Source of the DNA: Pelagophyceae sp. CCMP2097
Lineage: Eukaryota > Sar > Pelagophyceae
Reading direction: 5' to 3'
Length of the DNA stretch: 57,418 bases
Assembly (NCBI GenBank): GCA_026770575.1
Contig: MU657209.1
Coordinates: 1-57,418 of the forward strand
Each line of letters starts with the position of its first letter. Position 1 is the stretch's first letter. This document shows, one piece after another, positions 22,748 to 42,800 of this stretch. Position numbers and translations under genes: made by a program. Below the pieces are notes generated by a model, which was given only the letters and a program-made list of their open reading frames with translations, ran no database searches and was not told the DNA's origin.

Positions 22748-23157
22748 GGGAAGTGCCGAGACGCCGCTCGCGCGCCTCAAAGCCGGCGCGCGCGCCTCGC
22801 TGTACAGCGTCGCGTCGAAGCCGTCGTCATAGTCGTCGTTAGAAAATAGTCCAATTTTTCAAAGTCTCAAAATTTGGCCTTTTAAGATTTTAGACGCCAC
22901 TTAGCGCATTCGACGCGTGCTGAAGCGGCGAGTCCGAATCCGCTATTTTCAGCGTGAATAGCGTTAGTTGCCTTTTTAGCGATAAGCGTCATTTTGCCAG
23001 TGCCGGTGACATGCGATACAACGGAAATCCCGTTACTGTGCTCCAAATCCGCGCAACTCGAAAATCGAAAAACTAAAAAACACACGCCATTCGCTCCCTC
23101 CACAGCGAGTGAAAAAGGTCCCACTGACGAAAACGGCCGCAAAAAAACGGCTGCAAA

Positions 23158-23177
23158 GAACGTTCCTCGGAACGTTC
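23158..23177. repeat. Perfect 9-bp stem hairpin
   Basis: GAACGTTCC, two bases, then GGAACGTTC. The arms are exact reverse complements, and each arm nearly repeats the GAACGTTC palindrome. Confidence 0.85.
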
Positions 23178-23200
23178 TGAAACACCCCGCAAGCCGCTAG

Positions 23201-23252
23201 GGAGACATGCAGTGCTTCGATGGTAAAAGGCTCTCGGCCCCTGCGGGGCCCT
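23201..23252 (-). repeat. Inverted repeat, right copy
   Basis: Reverse complement of the 22694-22747 element, with GCAGTGCTT in the diverged half and the identical 24-base CCCCTGCGGGGCCCT-ending arm. It overlaps the downstream end of the WD40 gene. Confidence 0.8.
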
Positions 23253-24099
23253 ATCGCCGTCGTAGCTCGCCGTCGCCGGACGAGAAGACGCAGCTTGCCA
23301 CCGGACGAGAAGACGCAGCTGTAGATGAAGCCGGCGTGCCCCTCGAGCGTCGTCTGCAGCGCACCCGTCTCGGCGTCCCAGAGCCGCGCCGTCCTGTCNN
23401 NNNNNNNNNNNNNNNNNNNNNNNNNNNNNNNNNNNNNNNNNNNNNNNNNNNNNNNNNNNNNNNNNNNNNNNNNNNNNNNNNNNNNNNNNNNNNNNNNNNN
23501 NNNNNNNNNNNNNNNNNNNNNNNNNNNNNNNNNNNNNNNNNNNNNNNNNNNNNNNNNNNNNNNNNNNNNNNNNNNNNNNNNNNNNNNNNNNNNNNNNNNN
23601 NNNNNNNNNNNNNNNNNNNNNNNNNNNNNNNNNNNNNNNNNNNNNNNNNNNNNNNNNNNNNNNNNNNNNNNNNNNNNNNNNNNNNNNNNNNNNNNNNNNN
23701 NNNNNNNNNNNNNNNNNNNNNNNNNNNNNNNNNNNNNNNNNNNNNNNNNNNNNTCTGCAGCGCACCCGTCTCGGCGTCCCAGAGCCGCGCCGTCCTGTCG
23801 TAGCTCGCCGTCACGATGCGCTTGCCATCGGGCGAGAACGCGCAGCTCCGGACGTAGTTGGTGTGCCCCTTGATGATTGCGGTGCCCTTCAAAATCCGGT
23901 CTATCCAGATGAGTTTGCGCACGGTCGGCGCCACGGCGCGCGCATTTCGAGCGACTCGTGCTGTCACGAGGAGTGCGTCCGGTTTTCCCCCCAGCCGGAG
24001 GATGAGCGCGAGCAGGTCGCTCAGTTCGAGCACCTTGAGGACCGGCGCGGCGGCGGGCGCGGCGGGTCGCGACTGGACGACTCGCGAGGCCTCATCCAT
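23251..24099 (-). CDS. WD40-repeat protein, interrupted by an assembly gap
   Basis: From an ATG at 24099 (MDEASRVVQSRP) a helical N-terminus of about 75 residues (VLELSDLLALILRLGGKPDA, VRKLIWIDRILKG) leads into a WD40 unit: GHTNYVRSCAFSPDGKRIVT, SYDRTARLWDAETGALQ. A 355-base run of N then removes an unknown number of repeats. On the far side the same unit resumes with DRTARLWDAETGALQT, then GHAGFIYSCVFSSGGK, after which the frame degenerates around a 20-bp duplication (AGCTGCGTCTTCTCGTCCGG, twice). The true 3' end is uncertain. WD40 propellers are interaction scaffolds; near-identical units suggest recent internal duplication. It could be a partly decayed copy. Confidence 0.7.
   Translation of the reverse strand: MDEASRVVQSRPAAPAAAPVLKVLELSDLLALILRLGGKPDALLVTARVARNARAVAPTVRKLIWIDRILKGTAIIKGHTNYVRSCAFSPDGKRIVTASYDRTARLWDAETGALQXXXXXXXXXXXXXXXXXXXXXXXXXXXXXXXXXXXXXXXXXXXXXXXXXXXXXXXXXXXXXXXXXXXXXXXXXXXXXXXXXXXXXXXXXXXXXXXXXXXXXXXXXXXXXXXXXXXXXXXTGRRGSGTPRRVRCRRRSRGTPASSTAASSRPVASCVFSSGDGELRRR
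23399..23753. other. Assembly gap inside a WD40 repeat array
   Basis: 355 Ns. The bases on both flanks carry the same sequence (CTGCAGCGCACCCGTCTCGG onward, about 45 bases ending CGCCGTCCTGTC), so the gap probably reflects collapse of near-identical repeat units. The real length is unknown. Confidence 0.95.
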
Positions 24100-31417: not shown

Positions 31418-32070
31418 GATCCTCCGATGCCAAGGGACGACGATCGGAATCCCGCGAGACTCCGGCGAGTTTCGAACGCCCGACAGCCGGGAGCCTCTCG
31501 CCCGTCGGTGCACGCCTCAGCGTCCGCCGTTCCGAGCAGTTTCGAAGCCGAGGAGCCTTCTGGAGCCGAGGAGCCTTCTCGGACTTTTCCAGAAGAAACA
31601 TCCACAATCCGTTTAATAAATTTCTTGCGGGGATTTCGAGAACCGCCGTGCAGCATGCCTCTCGCTGCTCGAGGGCCATCTGAGCCCCTTCACTGAAGAA
31701 GTGCATGAGGCTTATACACCACGACAGAGCGAGAAGAGAGAGACTTTTTAAATTCAATGACAATCAAATATAAATTCCTAGTTTTAAAAATCCAACTTCA
31801 ACAGCAATAATAACCGTCAACAAAACAATAGGAATTTCCTAGCGGCGTTTCGCCGGTCAAACTGAAACCAAATTAAGTTTGCTAACATTATTTTGGACAG
31901 TTTTCTCAGTGTGTGAAGTTAATACCTGTACTTGTAGTCAGTAACTTTAATCAGTGTGCGAGTGCTGTCAGAGGGCCGCCGCAGAGGCGCGAGGACCCAC
32001 CGCTCCCGCGGCGCTCCGCGGTCCCTCGCGAGCAAGGGCGGCGCGAGGCGCGACCCGGCGGCGCGGTGGT
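31418..32070. other. AT-rich intergenic region before the beta-helix gene
   Basis: From about 31610 to 31950 the sequence is clearly AT-rich compared with both neighbours. It holds TAGGAATTTCCTA at 31829-31841, related to the palindromes at 7521 and 56693, and a half copy AATTCCTAG near 31776. It presumably contains the promoters of the two divergent membrane-protein genes. Confidence 0.55.
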
Positions 32071-35000
32071 ATGCGTTTGATCGGCGGGGTCCTCCTCGTC
32101 GTGCTCTTATGCGCCGCCGAGGCGCGGTCCCACGAGGTCTGCGAAGATGTCTGCCGAGGGCTCCACTGCGACGAGTTTCACACCGAATGCAACCAAGCCG
32201 AATCGCTCTTCGGCTGCAAATGCGACGGCTGCGCAAACTGCCGGCCGGAGGGGCGCCGGCTCGAGGCGGCCAACTCGACGGCGGCCAACTCGACGGCGCC
32301 CGGCTGCGCGCAGCCGTGCTTCGGCGACGCGCGCGGCTGCGACGCGTTCATCCCGCTCGGCGCGACGTGCGTCGACCTCGAGACGAACGAGTATCTCCAG
32401 GTCGCCATGGCGACCTGCGACTGCTCCGGGTGCCTGCTGTGCGACGAGATCGACGCGTTTGGGCCCGCGGTCGACGCCTGCGCCGGTGGCGATGGCGGCG
32501 CGGTTTCGGAAATAAGCACCGAAGCGGCGATGACCGCGGCGCTGGCCGCGGGCGCGCCGTGCACGTCCATGGTCCTCACCGGCGACGTGGCCCTGGGCGC
32601 GGCCGCCTATTTTGAAAGTTCGGTGCGCCTCGTCGGCGCGGCCGGCGCGTCGCGGCCCGTGCTGTCGCCGGCGTCTGGGCCGCACCGCCTCGTCACTATC
32701 GTGGATCAAGCGGTCGTCTCGCTGGCGTCGGTCGTCCTGCGCGACGGCTACGAAGTCTCTGCCGGCGGATGCGTCTTTGTCGGCGGTGGCTCGAAGCTGT
32801 CGCTGGACCGCGTGGCGTTCGAGAACTGCGCCGCAGGCACCGTGGGCGGCGGCGTCGCCGGCTGGACGTCGTCGTTGCTCCACGTCGCGCGGTCGTCCTT
32901 CGACAACAACGCCGCGGGGCTCCTGGGCGGCTCGGTGTTCGGGCACGATCTCGCGGCCGTTGTCCTCACGGGCGGGACGAGGATCGGCCGCTCGAGCGCG
33001 TTCATCGGCGGCGGCGTCGCGGTCGTGACGGCGGCGAGGCGAGTCCCACCCCGGGGCGACGTCGGATTTGCGCGTCCGTGCGACATTGTTCGAGCGCGTA
33101 GGGTCGAGATGTCGGAGGAGTCGCGCATCGAAGCGTGCTTCGGGTCGTCCAGCAGCGGCGGTTTATTCGCGGGGCGCGGCGCGTTGGCGACCCTGTCGAG
33201 CGGGAGTGTCATCGCGGCGTCGCACACGGCCGGGAACGGCGGCGGCTTCTTCAGCTACATCTCCAGCACCGTCGTCCTCGAGGGGGGCTGCACCGTCGCA
33301 AACTGTACCTCGATCAACGCCGGCGGTGGTGGGCAGGCCTACGTCGCCGACGTGTTCACGGCGTCCGACTGCACCTTCATCGGGTGCTTGGCGATGGCCG
33401 GGGGCGCCGGCCTCATCGTGAGGATGACCGAGGGCTACGGCAGCGGCACGATCACAAACATCGACTTTTTTCACTGCACCGCACCTCGAGGCTCCGGCGG
33501 CGGCTTCTCGCTCGGCTTCGCGAGCAGGGCGACGCTGACGGACTTGCGGTTCGTCGGCTGCACGGCGGGCCAGGCTGGCGGCGCGGTCGCGGCCCCTTAT
33601 TCGGGGATCGGCGCGATGGTGCTCCTTCGGACCTCTATCACCAGATGCCACGCCGACGGCGACGGCGGCGCCCTCTTCCTCGGCGCCGATTTCCGGGCCT
33701 CGATCGACGCGTCGACGCTCTCCGACAACACCGCCGGCGGCGACGGCGGCGCCGTCGCGGCGGGCGCGACGTCGAAGCTCGCGGTGTTTGGTGGGACGCG
33801 CGTCGAACGCAATTCCGCGGGGAACCGCGGCGGTGGCCTGGCGCTGCTCCCCGCGTCGATTGCGGGCGTCCAAAACGCCGTCGTCGCGGACAACAGCGCC
33901 TTTGGCGGCGGCGGCGCGGTATTTGTCGGCGCGGGCGCGACGCTCCACCTCGGGCGCGCGGCCCTCCTTTCTCGCAACGTCGCTGGGTCCGACGGCGGTG
34001 CCGTGGACGTCCGCGGCAAGGATGCGCTGCTCTACGTCTCGACGTCGTGCTCCTTCGTTGAGGTCACGCTTGACTGGACACTCACCAACTCGTTGGACGC
34101 CGCAGACGCCTCCGTTTTACTCGACTACGCCGGCGCGCGGGACGCGCGAGGCGCGCCGGCGCGCTTCGTGCCGCAAAACGGCGCCGTGACGCATTTTGAG
34201 GCGTGCCTGCCGCCGGGCCGCGGTTACGAGCTCTGGGCCGCGTCGTCGAGAGGGCAGACCTGGCTCCAGGGGTCGTGGTCCATTAAGCTCCCGCCGCACG
34301 GTGGCACCGTCGCCTCGTTTTTAGAGCCCCGCCTGACGTTCGTCCAAGCGGTCAACGAGTACGGCGTTCAAGGCATCGGCTCCCAGACGCACGGCGCGCT
34401 CGCGGCGGCGTTCCACCTCGACGACGACGACGCCTCGTTTGACGCCGCGGTCGACGGCATTGATGCGGTGCGCATCGTCGGCAACGTGGCCCTCGCGGGC
34501 GGCGGCGGCGGCGTCTCGGCTACCAAGGCGGGCCGCGCTGTCGTGTACGAGGCCCTGTTCGAGGCCAATCACGCGCTGACAGGCAGCGGCGGCGCGTTCG
34601 CCGTCGGCGCGCAGTCAACAGCCGTGTTACAGAGCGTCAACGCCGTCGCGAACGTGGCGGGCCGCGATGGGGGCGCCGTGCGGGTTGGCATGCTCGGCGT
34701 CGTGGACATTTACAACTCGACGGCGACGGCCAACGACGCCGGCGGCCGCGGTGGGTTCGCGATCTTGGATCGGGTGCGCACGGCGTCGCTGCGGTCCGTG
34801 ACGGCGCGCGGGAATAGGGCGGCGGACCGCGGTGGAGCGCTATCGCTCGAGCTCTGCGACCAGGACCCAGTTGTCGTCGCGCACTCGACTTTCCAGAATA
34901 ACTCGGCCGCTCTCAGCGGCGGCGCGCTCGACGTCCAGTCGAGCTTCCTGCGCGTCGAGGGCGCGACGCTCTTCGCCGGCAACTCGGTCGACGCGGGGAG

Positions 35001-38000
35001 CGGCGGCGGCGTCGCCGTGCGGCCGACGGGCGCGGCGCTTGCGCTCGCGAGCCAGCCCGCGGCGTGCGTCGCCGTCCTGCGCGTCGTCGTGGACTGGCGC
35101 CACAACGCGCAGCGCTGCGAGGTCGTCGGGGCCATTTTTGGCACGACGCACAACCTCGACGGCACCTGCGACTCGGTCCCGTCGAGTTGCGACCCGCTTC
35201 GCACGATCGCCAGCGCGACGCGATGCGCCGGCTGCACCTGCAAGGAGAACCTGGTCGGCGCGGGCGAGTCGTACTTCAGCGTAGACCGCGTGGCCGACGG
35301 CGCTCTCTTACCGACGGAAGCCGCGACGCTGTTCGTCGGCGAGCCCGACGCGGGCGCGGCCAAGGAGTTTGAGATTTGCCTCGAGGCCGGCGAGTACAAG
35401 ATCGTCGCGCACGACCGGCGCGGCGCGGCGTGGTTCGGGGGCACGCTGGAGGCGACGGTCTTGGACTTTGAGCTCGAACCGATCCACCGCGCGAGCGCCG
35501 AATGGTCCCCGTCGGGGTTTTCGACGGAGCCCGTGCGGTTCAGCGTCCGGGCCGTCTCCTCGAAAGACCTCGCGGTGCGCTTCGTCGACAACGCGGCGAT
35601 TGAAGGCGGCGGCGCGGCCGTGTTCTGGACCGCAGAGGCGCCGGCCGGCCTCGAAGCGGCCGCAACCTATTCGACCGGCAACGCGGCAGGTTACGGGTCG
35701 TTCGCGGCGACGCCCGCGACGCAGCTCCTGATCAACACGACGCAGCTCCTGATCAACTCGACGCTTACAAAAGCCAACGCCGTGCCGAGTGCCGCCATGC
35801 CGCCGATCGAGACCGTCTTGGTCGACGGCTACGGCCAGGTCGTGAGCGCCGACTCGACGACGGCGGTCAACGTACAGTTTATCGACGACGCCCTGGGTGT
35901 GGTCCAGGCCTCTGGGCTCGTTGCCGTCTGCGCACACGGCGTCGCGCGGTTTGACGCGATAACGATCATAGGCCTCCCGGGAGACACGCACCGCCTCCAC
36001 TTCATGGCGCCGTCTGCTGCGCTGGAGACGGCGCCTTTGACGGTCGATCTGACGCCCTGCCCCGTGGGCTTCGCGGAACGCGCCGACGGCGACGCCGGTG
36101 TGTCGTGCATCGCGTGCTCGTACATGGAGTTCTACGACGGCGGCTACTGCGTGGCGTGCCCGCGCGGCGCGGCCTGCGAGCGCCACGAGCCGCTCAACGC
36201 CTTGTCGGCGCAGGTCGGGTACCAGCTCTTCACCTTGGAGACGCTGCCGATCAAGCGCGGCTTCTATCGCTTCTTCGCGACGTCTGACAAGATCTACAAA
36301 TGCCCTGACAATGATTTCTGCGAGGCTGGCCACTGCAGCTGCGCCGGCGTCGGCTACGAGGAGGCCTTTCGCGATCCTTCGCGGACGCACGGCTCGGGGC
36401 TCTGCGCCACCAACTCCGAGGGGCCGCTCTGCGCGCTCTGCGGCGCGGGCTACCACCCGCGGCCCTCGTCGCTCGGCAGCGGCGGCGGTTGCGCCAAGTG
36501 CGAAAGCAACTCGGTGCTGCCAATCTTCTTTGCAGGAGTATTCGCGGCGCTCATCGGCGCGCTAGCACTCGCCTCGGCGGCGGCCGTCGCCTGCGCGGGC
36601 GTCGCGATTACGCAAAACCGAATCCTTCGGGCCGCGTCGTTCGTGCGGTCGCGCTGGTTCATCATCGCCGTCGTGCAGGTCTGGTACGCGGTCAGCACGG
36701 TCGTGCGCTTCACCGCCATCGAAGAGGCCAGCTACCCCGAGCCGCTCCAGTCGGTCCTCCAGTTTCTCGGCTTCTTCTCCTTCGACCTCTCCTTCGTCAT
36801 GCCCTCGTTGCAATGCTTCTATCACATGACCTATTTCGAGCTCTTCCTGACCTGGTCGCTCTTCCCGCTTGCGTTCGGTGCCTTTCTCGGCGTCGGCGTC
36901 GTCGCCGTCGCCGCGGCGCGCGTGCGCGGCCCGCCGTGGCCGGTCGAGGTCTGGAGGCAATTGACGCGGACCGTCGCGGGCCGGGCGACGCGGCGCACCG
37001 CCGTGTCGCTCTTCTGGCTCGTTTTAGTCCTCCTGCACACGTACATTTGCTCCATCATCTTCACGTTTTACTCGTGCTCAGAAGCGTTTGCCGTCTCGGA
37101 GACGGAGCGCGAGCAGTGGCTCGCGTACGACTATGGGGTGCGATGCGGCAGCGAGGCGCACATCGCCTTTGAGGGCGCGGCGGCGACGCTGCTCGTGCTT
37201 TACGTCATCACACCCGCGTCATGGGAAACCCGAACCGTCGAAGCAACGACGGGATGCTGACCGAGTCGTGAGAGGCAGCAGAGGCTCGAAAAACACCGGA
37301 GACGAGACACGCAATCGTGGCCGTCGTGCGTGAATAACTGGTGCCTTTGGACCGTCGTCCCGTCACGATCACGTTAGGTGCTGGTCGTCCCCGCGTCGCT
37401 GGCGCTCAAGCTCAAGCTGAACCGCCGCGCGGGCCGGTCCGACGGCGCGCTTGCCTTCTTCACGCGGCACGTGCGGCCGGCGGTCTGGTACTATGAAATC
37501 GTGGCGCTCGAAGTGCGCCTCGTCGTCTGCGGCGCACTCGTCCCCGTCACGAGCCGCGGCCTCCGCCTGTCCATCATCCTCGTCGTGACGCCCAGCGTCG
37601 AAGAATTCTGGCAAACGTTTGAGGGCAGCCTTTGGCGACGACGGCCTTCCCTCGTGGAGCCTTTCGTAAGACGCCACGCTAGGTGATCTTTGGCTGGACG
37701 ATCGTGACGCGCGAGATGCGGCCCTACATCAACCGGGGCCACCAGGTGCTGGTCAACTATCTGCAAATCTTCGTCCTGAGTTGTCTCGCGCTGGCCCTCA
37801 TCCTGTACGGGGAGCTCCTCTCCGACAGAGCTGCCAAAATCTTTGCCTGGATCGTTTCGGCCATCTCAATCTTCATCACGGTCAGACTCTACAGCGCGTA
37901 TAAAAGCGAGGAGGTGACAGAGATCGTGGAGCTCGTGCGGTCGCGGCGCGCCTTTGACCGAAACGCTTTCCTCCGCCTCCACGTCGGCATGAACGTGCGC

Positions 38001-39662
38001 GTCATGGACCACGCCGTTTTTGCGGCGGCGCTCGCCATCCTCGACGATGAATTCTTGGAAACGACCGCAAAGGCGCCGCAGGCCGCCGGCGCCGCGGCGG
38101 TACCGGGGTGGGCCTACCTGACGGCGCATCTCCTGCCGCTGCGGGACGTCTGGACGCGCGCGGCGCGGAAGCGGACGGTGCTCCTGACGCACGCGCCGCG
38201 CCTCCTTGAAAACGCGGCGCTGCTCGTGCGGACGCGGGTGCGGTGCGCGCCGGAGGCGGGCGGCGTCGTCATGTCAGAAAGAAAGTTCGCCAAGGCAGTC
38301 GACAGCGTCCTCGGCCCGCTCGCGCAGGAGCTCTGCGGCGACGTGGTCGCGGAGACGTTTTCGCGCTTCGCGGCCGCGGAGCCGCAGCCGACGCTCGCCC
38401 TCGACGATTTCGAGGCGGCGCTGCGAGCCATCCTCGACCATACCTCAGAGCAGGAAGAGCAGGACCTCGACGCGTCTCTCCGCTGTGGCGGGCGGGCGTC
38501 GGTGCCGGCGTCGCTCCGCGGCCTCGCGCTCGCCGTCCTCCCGGCGAAGAAGTTCGCGCCGTGTAAGAAGTACGACGCCGAGAATCAGGACTCGGAGGAT
38601 GATTCGCCCGGGGGCGCCCGGGCCGCCGTCGGCGCCTGGGCCGCCGTCGAGGAGCGCGCGTCGCGCATGCTCCTCCGGCTGCGGCCGACGGGGCGGCACG
38701 CGACGCGCGGCAGCCCGCACAAAGAAACGCCGCAGGCCCGGTCGGCGGCGGACGTCGGCCCCGCGCCCGGCGAGGCCTGCCGCAGGCATAATGACAAGTT
38801 CTTCGACCTCGCGGTCCACGCGCACGCGGCCAACTTCAAGTGTTGGATGGTGATGGAGGAGGCGGCCGCGGCGATCCTGGCCGAGCCCGACTGGGGCGCG
38901 AGAATTTCCGCGCTCGCAGACTTTTCCGACGGCCCGGACGCGTTGCTGCAGACGCCGCTTCAGGACCCGCGCCTCGTGGCCTGGGTGGCCGGGCTCGGCG
39001 GCGACGCCCTGCGCGAGCATTTCGACGAGGCCGTGCTGCCGCACGCTTTGCGGAGCGTCGCGCTGGACGCGCACCCGGCCTTTATCGCCGCGCTCCGGGC
39101 CCTGATGTGCGTGCCCGAGGCCGACGATGACGCCGAAGACGAGAAAGAGGAGGAGGCGCGGGCGTTGTGGACGACCAAGGTCGAGCTCTACAAGTTTTGC
39201 TCCGCGACGGCGGTGAAGAGCGCGACGCGCATGAGCGCAAAGGTCGAAGTGTACCGCGGCGAGGACGGGCCGGCGAGCGCTTCGTGGCCGCGCGCCGCGC
39301 GCATCACCGACCCGCTGCGCGCGACCGTCGTCTGCGACGACGCCGAGGCCATCGTGCGGGCTTACGACGCGCTCCGCGGCGGCGGCGCGGACGGCACCGG
39401 GGTGCATCTTGAGCACGGCGGCGGCGCGGACGACACCGCGGCGAACGCGCACCCCTTCCGCGTCACCAGACTCAAGAACAAGCTCGGGCTCTGCACCAAG
39501 CCCTTCAACCTCCACATCAACTGCGTCTTCGACCGTGGCGACGGCGCCGCGCCCATCACGACGGAGATCCAGATCGTCCCGCGCGCGGTCAACGCCGTCA
39601 CGGGCCCGTCGCACAAATTTTACACGCTCTCCAGAGCGCTCAAAGCCGAAGCGCTCGTCTAA
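32071..39662 (+). CDS. Beta-helix (POMP-type) receptor/channel fused to a RelA/SpoT-like domain
   Basis: Exons 32071-37203, 37378-37584 and 37683-39662, joined in phase 0, about 2,440 residues. Signal peptide MRLIGGVLLVVLLCAAEA. Residues 25-150 are cysteine-rich, EGF-like. Residues 150-1330 form a right-handed beta-helix of POMP type: many units of GGAV or GGG followed by FxxNxA-like turns (for example SSFDNNAAGLLGG, STLSDNTAGGDGGAVAAG). A Cys-rich GCC2/GCC3-like stretch follows (CIACSYMEFYDGGYCVACP). From about 1480 come some nine membrane segments resembling the channel-like half of oomycete and algal POMP proteins. The tail (about 1880-2440) is cytoplasmic. Its last 165 residues, VKSATRMSAKVEVYRGED, ITDPLRATVVCDDAEAIVRA, RLKNKLG, ITTEIQIV and SHKFYTLSRA, resemble RelA/SpoT-like nucleotidyltransferases; that assignment is tentative. 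Confidence 0.82.
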
Positions 39663-39814: not shown

Positions 39815-42800
39815 CTAGTCCTGCGCGGGCAGCACGGTGATCTTGAAGTCGTACTCTTGGTCGCACCCTAAAAAGGAATCGCACATAAAGTACAGCATCA
39901 AGTCGTGTTCCCCCGGCTCCGTCGGCGCGATGAAGTCGAGCTGCAACTCGGCGCGCGCCTGGACCGCGACACGCTTGATGGAGAGGAGGTTGTTGTTCTT
40001 GACGTCGGCGACGCAGAGCCACCAGCCCTCCTTTTTCGGGAGCGGGTATCGCGGCGCCTTGACCAGGCCAATGTCCGCCGCTCCTTCATCGACCTCGCGC
40101 TCCAGCGTCACGGTGACGGCGGCGGCGTCTCCCGCGCGAATCGCTTCGGCGTCGGATACGGCGAAGCTGAGCTCGATGTTGGGGTAGTCGTTACAGAAAG
40201 CCGCCACGTCCGCCATCTGTTGCGGGTCCTCCAGCGCCAAGCACTTGGTCCGGATTTCGTCGTCCAACCCAAGAATGTCGAAGACGCCCTCGACCTCGAC
40301 GCCCGCCTCCTTGAAGCGGTCCAAAGTGTCCAAGTCGACGTGCGGCACTTGTAAAAGCGGCGAGTCCGTGGACCACACACCTTGCACGACCATTTGGCAG
40401 AGCTCCATTGCCGCCAGCGCCGGGACGAGCCAGCCGTTGGAGGAGATGACGTCCACCAAAGCTTGTAAAAGCCGCACGGCGTCTCGCAAAGCGGCGTCGC
40501 GGTCGGAGCGGAGCTCGGTGGACAGCGGCGCGCGAGAGAAGTGCGACTGCAACAAAAGCATCGCTTTGAGGTGCGGGTCCGTGAACTTGGCGCCGTCGGG
40601 GACCTTGTGTTTCGAGTGCGCCGCCAGCCTCTGCAGCGGCTTCTCCTCGCCCTGGCGCGTCGGCAGGGAAGCGTATTCCGACGCATTGGCAAGGATCTCA
40701 AGTAAAGCCGCCACTTTCGACTTCTTCGCCACCGACGAGGCGAACAACTCCACCGTCGTGTACGCGATGCAGTAGTACGCGCCGATCATGCCCAGGTTCA
40801 ACGGCGCGATGTCCATCTCGTCGGCTACGGCGATGCACCTCGACTCCTCCAAGTCGGAGATCACGCCTTCCACCAGTTCGGACAAGTGGTCCGAGACGTG
40901 GCGGTGCGTCGACCCCTGCAAGTCGTAGAAATTCGGGTTCATGGCCAGCCTGCGGTAGTACAAAGTCCAGGTCAAGTAGTCTACCGCGTCCTGCTTGTTC
41001 TCGATCGTCTTGGTCACCACCTCGGCGTTCATGTGGTCGTGCAGGAAGTGGTCCAGCCGAGACTCCACCGGCAAAGGCTCGTAGAGCAGGCGCTTCAGGT
41101 ACTCCTTCTTCGGAGTGTGGCAAAAAACGGCACATTTCGAATCCGAGTCGACGCCCGCGCGGCCAGTCTTGCCAATCATCTCCAAGAGGTCCGTCACCGG
41201 GTAGTCGACGTAGCGGTGCTCGCGGCCGTCGTACGCTTCCGTGCCCATGACGACGACGAGGTGGGCGGTCAAGGCGACGTCCCAGCACGCGGCCGCGGGC
41301 ATGACCAAAACCCAGACGCGCCCGGCGCGGTACTCGGCCCGCACCGTCTTCGCGTCCGAGGCGCACAGTCCGGCGTGGTAAAACGCGACGCCCTGGGCCA
41401 GCGTCTGCTTTAAAGCGACGTCTCGCAACTCTAAAAGCTCGACCTGCTCGGCCGTGCGGACGTACTTGTCGCGGCCACCCCCGGCCTTGTTCGCCGCCAC
41501 GTCCGCCAAAGCGTGGGCCATGATGTCAATGGCCGTGAGCTGGCACTGCTTGCGCGACGGCACAAAGGCGATGGTCGGGAGGTCAGGGGCGTGGCGCGCG
41601 ATCACGCCGTAAAGCACTTTCCCCATGGCCAAAAGCCTCGACGCAAAGTGCGGCGTGTCGAACGAGTGCAGGAACAGCTCTAAAGGGATGGGCCGCACGT
41701 TGGAGTGGAAGGAAAAGGTCGAGGCGTGCGGGCAGCCGAGCCAGTCTCCGACGTCCTTTGCGTCAGCCAACGAAGACGCCAGCCCGACGACGCGCGGAGG
41801 CGCCTCGAGCTGCGACGACATGTAGCGCATGCGCGAGACGACGACCTCTAAAGTCGGTCCTTCCGCGCCCTCGGCCGTGCCGACGCAGTGCAAGTCGTCT
41901 GCGATGAACAACGAGACTCTTTGGACGGCCTTGCGCTGCTTCCAGCGGCGCGAGAGCACGTCCCACTTGGCCGCCGTGCAGACGGCGATCTGCGCCGTGT
42001 TCAAAGCCTTTAAGTCTTCAGCGACGTCGCCGCAAAGCTCGACGACGTGAGCGCCCAAGCGTTCGCCAAATTTCTCCTTCCACTCGGCCAGCCTCTGCCG
42101 CACCGCCGCCTGCTTGGGCGCCACGTACACAATGGCGCCGGAGATGTGCTTCTTCTCGCCCGCGGCGGCGCGGAGGACGAGCTCCTTTTTCAACTGCCGC
42201 AAGATGGCAAACTCAGCGCAGACGAGCCGGCCCGACCCCGCCGGGGCGCAGACGAGCACGTTGTCGTCCTGCTCGTAGAGCGAGGCAAACGTCTGCGTCT
42301 GGATCGGGTTGAAGTGCGTCAGCGGCGGCGCGGCCATGTGGTCGTCGCTCGCGCCGGGCGAACCCAGCGCGTAAACGCGCTCAAAGGCCTTGTGCGCCAG
42401 CGCCGACACTGGCAAAGGCTGCAGATCCAGCAGCTCCGTGTGCGGCGGGTACTTGCGCGGGAGGACGAGGTGGCGGAACGAGATGGGCAGCGTCGCGGTG
42501 GAGTGGAGCCACCGATCGGAGACCACTTTTAAAAAGTACTGCGGCGGGAGCGGGTCCGAGATTGGAATCGCAAACACGACCGTGTGCTCCTCCTCGGCGT
42601 ACTGCGCGCGCAGCTGCCACGGCTCGTGGTGCAGGATCGTCTCGCCGTCGACGTCTTCCACGATGATGTGGAACGTTTGAGAGTGCTCGTGCACCTAGAC
42701 GCAATTGATTCAAATCCATCCTCGGGGGTCTCAACCTCACCTTTGGGTCCCACTGGAAGTCGGGCGTGATGACGAGCTCGACTCTGAGCAGCGCCCGCGA

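Follow-up and report, generated by a model that had tools for sequence, protein, structure and literature searches.

A receptor-like membrane protein with a predicted RelA/SpoT-fold C-terminal domain in the pelagophyte Pelagophyceae sp. CCMP2097

Results

Gene structure and paralogues

The window analysed here, 57,418 nucleotides of contig MU657209.1 from Pelagophyceae sp. CCMP2097 (GenBank assembly GCA_026770575.1), carries on its + strand a gene at 32071..39662 for a large receptor-like protein. Its exons encode, in order, a predicted signal peptide, a beta-helix ectodomain, a Cys-rich stem, nine predicted membrane spans, a helical linker and, at the C-terminus, a domain of roughly 160 amino acids (aa). 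The ATG at 32071 is included in an open reading frame (ORF) at 31954-37260, and the ORF of the last exon is 37683-39662. The joined exons 32071-37203, 37378-37584 and 37683-39662 are in frame and give 2439 aa as read. Both introns (37204-37377 and 37585-37682) have GT-AG borders, and the splice junctions recreate the sequences LYVLVVPASL and SIILVVIFGW that are uninterrupted in the paralogues P0010 and P0012. A third, in-frame intron of 63 nt with GC-AG borders is likely at 33039-33101, because the 21 residues that it encodes, an insertion found only in the window, are missing from both annotated paralogues compared; its removal leaves a protein of 2418 aa. Anyone reading the open frame alone would easily overlook it. 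We regard it as almost certain that this is a single spliced gene with a multi-domain receptor-like layout, and that the layout is real and conserved across a family. An initial annotation, made from the letters of the window without database searches, had described one gene with these same limits, correctly.

A search of the pelagophyte nuclear genome (66.2 Mb, 638 contigs) with the tail returned 17 matches, spread over 12 loci that include the window. The membrane region of the paralogue L011 recovered the same 12 loci, together with weak places on C80, C55, C31 and C152. At all 11 other loci the window protein aligns on one strand, with coverage of 0.98-1.00 for the membrane region, 0.96-1.00 for the RelA-like region and 0.81-1.00 for the linker; the beta-helix region is covered to 0.96-1.00 at 10 of them and to 0.26 in L012, whose fetched stretch stops there. 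In L010 (2375 codons, Met at codon 35) and L011 (2450 codons, Met at codon 46) a single open frame begins upstream of the start Met and covers the protein to its final residue. The tail is not a separate gene, because each of these two frames holds the whole layout. The L011 signal peptide falls below the cut-off of the hydropathy scan, its hydrophobic start being visible by eye. Most of the layout lies in one open frame in L009 (2168 codons).

Two annotated proteins, P0010 (2395 aa) and P0012 (2472 aa), show the complete layout, as does P0013 but for an end that, by eye, reads differently. Without its first residues the L009 frame is an exact part of P0012, and P0010 likewise contains, unchanged, the C-terminal 550 residues of the L015 frame; P0011 is an exact part of L010 and therefore no independent relative. 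NCBI proteins of Pelagophyceae sp. CCMP2097 made up 5 of the 8 matches of the first protein search, and the metagenomic protein P0009 is of the same receptor type. At E up to 10 the tail has 45 relatives from several sources, including P0056, named Aureococcus anophagefferens. Thirty stretches of viral contigs fit a pattern, none of which was confirmed as a relative.

Ectodomain, stem and membrane region

Residues 1-19 are hydrophobic (Kyte-Doolittle value 1.72), which on hydropathy alone predicts a signal peptide. Between residues 139 and 978 lie 27 GG clusters; 16 of the 26 gaps, counted by hand, measure 24-32 residues. Residues 1-1150 contain 36 GG, against a mean of 20.7 and a maximum of 32 in 500 shuffles. 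No Pfam match was obtained in the ectodomain of the window copy. That of P0010, a protein identical at 68% of window residues, matches PF13229 Beta_helix (E 8.6e-12), and PF13229 gave none in the ectodomain of P0012. Residues 1301-1400 hold 6 Cys and residues 1401-1500 hold 9. The nine predicted spans agree with both hydropathy and the positive-inside rule, Lys plus Arg counts being 4, 7, 7 and 3 in the predicted inner loops and 0, 2, 1 and 1 in the outer ones; the spans were hand-picked from the hydropathy list, and their odd number depends on omitting a hydrophobic stretch between spans 2 and 3. Because of the nine spans and these counts, the C-terminal tail is placed in the cytosol. The signal peptide, some 25 beta-helix units of POMP type, the Cys-rich stem and the roughly nine membrane segments of the initial annotation are all recovered here; its description of the region as channel-like is not, the membrane-region profile having no convincing match to a channel family or to the PDB.

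P0014, a relative of 1369 aa from ENA with 17 member sequences, lacks the beta-helix but shares the Cys stem, membrane region and tail. Its stem and membrane region are 26% identical to those of L011, with conserved columns over the whole length, and its tail domain is 40% identical to that of the window. Within its ectodomain, residues 195-352 are hit by the GepA model (3.9e-8), but with 32 bits against a whole-protein cut-off of 1200. The ectodomain matches a chemoreceptor structure at 0.0037 and, below threshold, Pfam MCP-like_PDC_1 (0.036), and so resembles a Cache/PDC-like sensor. Because P0014 bears the same stem, membrane region and tail under such an ectodomain, the comparison suggests that these three parts form one unit carrying exchangeable ectodomains, in a modular receptor family.

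The tail and the RelA/SpoT synthetase fold

The initial annotation had likened the end of the tail to RelA/SpoT synthetases by motifs that include RLKNKLG, TTEIQIV and HKFYTLSRA, all present in the order described, and had proposed a structure search. An AlphaFold model of 39099-39659 was compared with known structures by Foldseek, which places the tail with alarmone synthetases and not in an unrelated fold: alarmone synthetases or tRNA-modifying relatives account for 46 of the best 50 of 669 matches (E<=10). The best E is 1.8e-4, 9 matches have E<=0.001, and the top matches are the synthetases SAS1/SAS2. With VIA, rows 1-24 of the best 50 are Rel/SpoT/SAS/CapRel. A run on the 659-residue product of exon 3 with 8 sequences (mean predicted local distance difference test, pLDDT, 40.3) was unusable.

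Direct comparison of the tail with a profile of RelA/SpoT homologues (RSH) by hhalign, whose E-values here are for one single comparison, gave E 0.06 by default and 0.0096 at one other setting, in the expected register (K, D, R-x-K, L-H, E-I-Q-I, H-x-x-Y). Of five option sets, the global one produced a meaningless alignment. The RSH profile was built from 25 of the best 80 of 573 loci, most of the remainder bearing Pelagibacteraceae titles, together with L020 and L021.

A second route leads through a family linked to tetratricopeptide (TPR) repeats. P0022 as query weakly finds C57 (E 0.008), and the product there, L116, was the sole new place in that search. In L116 the domain recurs, with N-G-Y retained, and neighbouring frames match the TPR profile PF13424 (3.4e-45 and 1.9e-34). 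Searched against the genome, the L116 domain gives 35 matches down to E 7e-4, a total that includes L116 itself and some fragments belonging to one gene. PF04607 (RelA_SpoT) has no match at E<=10 in L116, P0022, P0020, P0034 or P0016. A bridge profile, A5, was made from L116 and 3 diverse members of the 35 matches. Against the PDB it finds Tas1 (7.2e-6, over the first 36 of 123 profile positions), the SAS2 protein YwaC (3.4e-4) and two staphylococcal synthetases (0.0039 and 0.0044). Aligned to the tail, it gives 96.8% with alignment A2 and 97.8% (E 1e-12) with A3; with trimmed rows it gives 98.0%, E 1.9e-13 and a score of 83.0, against at most 20.4 in 200 column shuffles. Bridge and RSH profiles align at 93.3% (E 2.6e-7, a comparison without shuffle control). 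The tail profile alone had no Tas1 match in the PDB up to E 10. By these profiles the TPR-linked family appears to connect the tail most closely, in sequence, to Tas1 and to SAS2-type synthetases, and it is on the fold matches and this chain that we relate the tail to RelA/SpoT. We consider the fold assignment itself very probable.

Conserved residues and selection

Residues are numbered from the start of 39099-39659 in alignments A2 (13 rows), A3 (35) and A4 (31); 36 of the 45 tail relatives were read, 31 entering A3 and 23 A4. Arg124, Asn127, Leu129 and Pro135 are invariant in A4, and Asp71, Leu73, Arg74, Ala75, Leu125, Lys126, His139, Phe144, Glu156 and Gln158 are conserved there at 90% or more. 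In both A3 and A4, conservation is complete or at least 90% for the putative metal-binding Asp and Glu and for R-L-K-N and E-x-Q. Asp71, in strand 1, and Glu156, in E-x-Q, align with the positions of the acidic pair of Rel, which we take to be the catalytic, metal-holding ones. All 13 A2 rows keep the K-S..R...K frame of the first helix unchanged. A conserved Phe or Tyr stands close to the place of the lost Gly-Tyr, and the profile alignments disagree on whether it fills that of the Tyr. The domain has a median ratio of nonsynonymous to synonymous substitutions (dN/dS) of 0.23 (45 pairs, 10 domains), taken over 10 of the 12 loci, with C11 and C619 omitted since the pattern did not catch their domain.

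A number of observations pull the other way. The tail model has a mean pLDDT of 65.9, and the Foldseek TM-scores are low (0.31-0.44 for ranks 1-41). PF04607 has no match at E<=10 in the tail and none up to E 5 in P0002-P0008; no model of Pfam, NCBIfam, PHROGs or PADLOC matches the tail convincingly, and PDB sequence searches with the tail or its profile returned nothing relevant. In the direct comparison with RSH, the default score was equalled by 18 of 200 shuffles and is not significant, while the untrimmed tail gave no sensible alignment, its reversed control scoring 10.5 against 2.9 for the real one. In the wider alignments A3 and A4, the K-S..R...K frame falls outside the columns conserved at 90% or more. 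The Gly-Tyr of the KPNGY loop, an element that serves the guanine base, is absent from 13 of 13 A2 rows, as the initial annotation had already remarked for the window protein, and the loop falls 2-3 residues short of the canonical length. Where SAS1 has R46, the Arg of G-R-x-K, the covering rows are read by eye as Ala or Ser. Finally, dN/dS rises to 0.37-0.75 in the 12 paralogue pairs with the lowest dS.

RSH genes, hydrolases and other features of the window

A genome scan with PF04607 (E<=10) found only C312, C329 and C382; the places on C329 and C382 score identically (94.7 bits) and may be allelic or duplicated contigs. HD_4 has seven matches at five loci, two of which, C128:85166-85594 and C13:65413-65927, lie away from any PF04607 match and are possible stand-alone alarmone hydrolases. 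Judged by these domain matches, they could remove an alarmone-type product. Given the three PF04607 places and the seven HD_4 matches, alarmone-type chemistry and its removal are plausible, no more.

Tail to tail with the receptor gene, the - strand of the window has a long open frame of 959 aa at 39815-42694, which presumably resembles an ASCC3/Brr2-type helicase. The GC content is 0.40 at 23001-24000 and at least 0.60 in all other 1-kb steps. Coordinates of the features of the receptor gene are listed in Table 1.

Table 1. Features of the receptor gene, in positions of the window
Feature	Position	Strand	Basis
Exon 1: signal peptide, beta-helix ectodomain, Cys-rich stem, first spans; 1711 residues as read	32071..37203	+	Open frame; splice site and junction agree with paralogues
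Probable in-frame 63-nt GC-AG intron inside exon 1	33039..33101	+	DNA; window-only insertion; inferred
Predicted signal peptide, residues about 1-20	32071..32130	+	Hydropathy 1.72, residues 1-19
Beta-helix (POMP/PF13229-type) region, residues about 139-980, 27 GG clusters	32485..35010	+	GG positions; PF13229 in paralogue P0010
Cys-rich stem, residues about 1330-1480	36058..36510	+	Cys counts; GPLC.LC..G...C..C common to P0014
Nine predicted membrane spans, residues 1482-1849, broken by introns 37204-37377 and 37585-37682	36514..37889	+	Hydropathy; Lys plus Arg loop counts; paralogue membrane regions homologous to that of P0014
Exon 2, part of membrane region	37378..37584	+	Splicing; paralogue junctions
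Exon 3: last spans, linker, conserved helical segment, RelA/SpoT-like domain, stop	37683..39662	+	Open frame, splicing
Conserved segment (FFDLAVHAHAANF...), predicted helical, precedes domain	38799..39110	+	Invariant block; partly in P0018-P0023
Predicted RelA/SpoT-fold domain; putative metal-binding Asp 39309-39311 and Glu 39564-39566	39171..39662	+	AlphaFold model of 39099-39659, Foldseek, VIA, bridge profiles

Discussion

The layout invites a reading as a receptor with an enzymatic output. The beta-helix ectodomain of a multi-pass surface receptor would bind a ligand or a surface, the Cys-rich stem and the nine-span region would relay the change inward, and the cytosolic RelA/SpoT-synthetase-fold domain would act as a regulated pyrophosphotransferase, moving pyrophosphate from ATP to an acceptor. 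That acceptor would probably not be GDP or GTP in the classical way; an adenine nucleotide, as for Tas1, or another 3'-hydroxyl would fit better. Location in the plasma membrane, control by a ligand, catalysis and the nature of the product are what we infer from this arrangement. On the whole, the balance tips slightly towards a catalytic domain. The fuller proposal, which we favour tentatively and as a little under an even chance, is a pyrophosphotransferase controlled by the receptor, with a main product other than classical (p)ppGpp. The initial annotation, which had suggested that extracellular contact could directly control nucleotide signalling inside the cell, is confirmed in what it observed and partly supported in what it made of it: for the RelA/SpoT likeness of the tail, the fold and the sequence chain through the bridging family speak in favour, and the direct RSH profile and PF04607 do not.

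The main competitor is a pseudoenzyme, in which the tail would be a RelA/SpoT-fold module for nucleotide binding or protein docking, sensing nucleotides or coupling to another enzyme. The missing Gly-Tyr loop and R46-equivalent Arg, together with the weak constraint between the closest copies, make this a serious possibility, if less than probable; against it, the putative Mg-binding Asp and Glu are kept at 90% or more across diverse relatives. The Arg deserves separate comment. AtRSH1, which has no synthetase activity, has Val at the SAS1 R46 position (PMC6881373). The Tas1 sequence as aligned to the bridge profile is also without Gly-Arg, and Tas1 is an active enzyme that does not use GDP/GTP (PMC8118318); other relatives pyrophosphorylate tRNA (PMC11559606). 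Loss of the R46-equivalent Arg does not alone imply inactivity; the acceptor is more likely something other than a guanine nucleotide. A classical synthetase under receptor control, with ppGpp or pppGpp as product, would agree with SAS1/SAS2 as top structural matches and with the separate RSH genes of the alga, by which ppGpp is probably part of its chemistry. The missing Gly-Tyr element, the replaced ATP-site Arg and a bridging family whose best PDB match is Tas1, a non-user of GDP/GTP, render it improbable.

The remaining alternatives concern the architecture. Beta-helix ectodomains are common among adhesins, and Ion_trans_2 weakly matches the relative P0005 (E 0.002; at 18.4 bits, below the cut-off of 22.5), so that one might see here an adhesin or channel with the tail as mere scaffold and no nucleotide-related role. 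We judge this very unlikely, given the conserved active-site-like residues of the tail, the sensor-like domain that replaces the beta-helix in P0014 and the lack of a convincing match between the membrane profile and any channel family or PDB entry; the channel version gained no support from either search. Least probable of all is a pair of neighbouring genes, one for a beta-helix membrane receptor with its end near 37260 and the other for the tail at 37683-39662, an outcome that the initial annotation had itself considered. Stops lie in all three frames between the exons, and two NCBI protein matches are marked partial. L010 and L011, in genomic sequence, nevertheless encode everything in one frame, the window junctions recreate paralogue sequence, the 12 loci matched by the tail are all matched by the membrane region too, and P0014 has the same stem-membrane-tail fusion. 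We rejected separate genes for the family on the one-frame paralogues, the co-occurrence and the junction match.

Were the receptor-controlled pyrophosphotransferase reading true, the alga would hold alarmone-type second messengers under direct extracellular control, beside its RSH genes and many TPR-linked cousins. The receptors might then form a new eukaryotic surface class, an idea we put forward with considerable doubt, with exchangeable ectodomains (beta-helix or Cache), a common nine-span module and a cytosolic RelA/SpoT-fold enzyme making a non-classical pyrophosphorylated nucleotide. Through this family, a large RelA/SpoT-like group that escapes Pfam also comes to light in the alga; its TPR-linked members are possibly a large undescribed protist family of their own.

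We know of no receptor with a RelA/SpoT-fold output. Literature searches, judged by title and the start of the abstract, a weak test of absence, surfaced no paper describing this layout among those listed. Atkinson et al. 2011 (PMC3153485) contains 'transmembrane' and 'receptor' 0 times and 'membrane' once; a paper on diatom RSH (PMC6881373) contains 'transmembrane' 0 times, and its abstract has (p)ppGpp made in plastids. A receptor at the cell surface would complement this plastid (p)ppGpp with an externally controlled cytosolic pathway, whose product can be sought. The ochrophyte RSH enzymes (PMC6881373; here C312 and C329/C382) have the synthetase fold in common with the tail; the RSH places in this genome show HD_4 and RelA_SpoT matches and no receptor layout in the frames read.

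Among individual systems, SAS1/RelQ and SAS2/RelP (PDB 5ded, 6fgk, 6ewz) share with the tail the fold, the order of elements and the positions of the putative metal-binding Asp and Glu. They retain Gly-Arg-x-Lys and Gly-Tyr, and unlike the window protein they are soluble and have no receptor part. Tas1, an interbacterial (p)ppApp synthetase (PDB 6ox6), has the block K-x-R-x-R...K...DY.GD....D-x-x-R in common with the bridging family, its counterpart in the tail being K-S-x-x-R...K...Y...D-x-x-R; Tas1 is an injected soluble effector. The TPR-linked proteins (L116, L148-L150) have by profile the same domain as the tail, L116 keeping the Gly-Tyr and adjoining TPR repeats, and P0014 differs from the window protein in its Cache/PDC-like ectodomain in place of the beta-helix. 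Receptor guanylyl cyclases and Cache-GGDEF proteins are analogous, with a sensor outside and a nucleotide-making domain inside, but their output domains are unrelated and their membrane parts single-pass or few-pass. A receptor with a nucleotide-making output is thus of a known kind, that of the receptor cyclases, and what would be new here is an output of RelA/SpoT fold.

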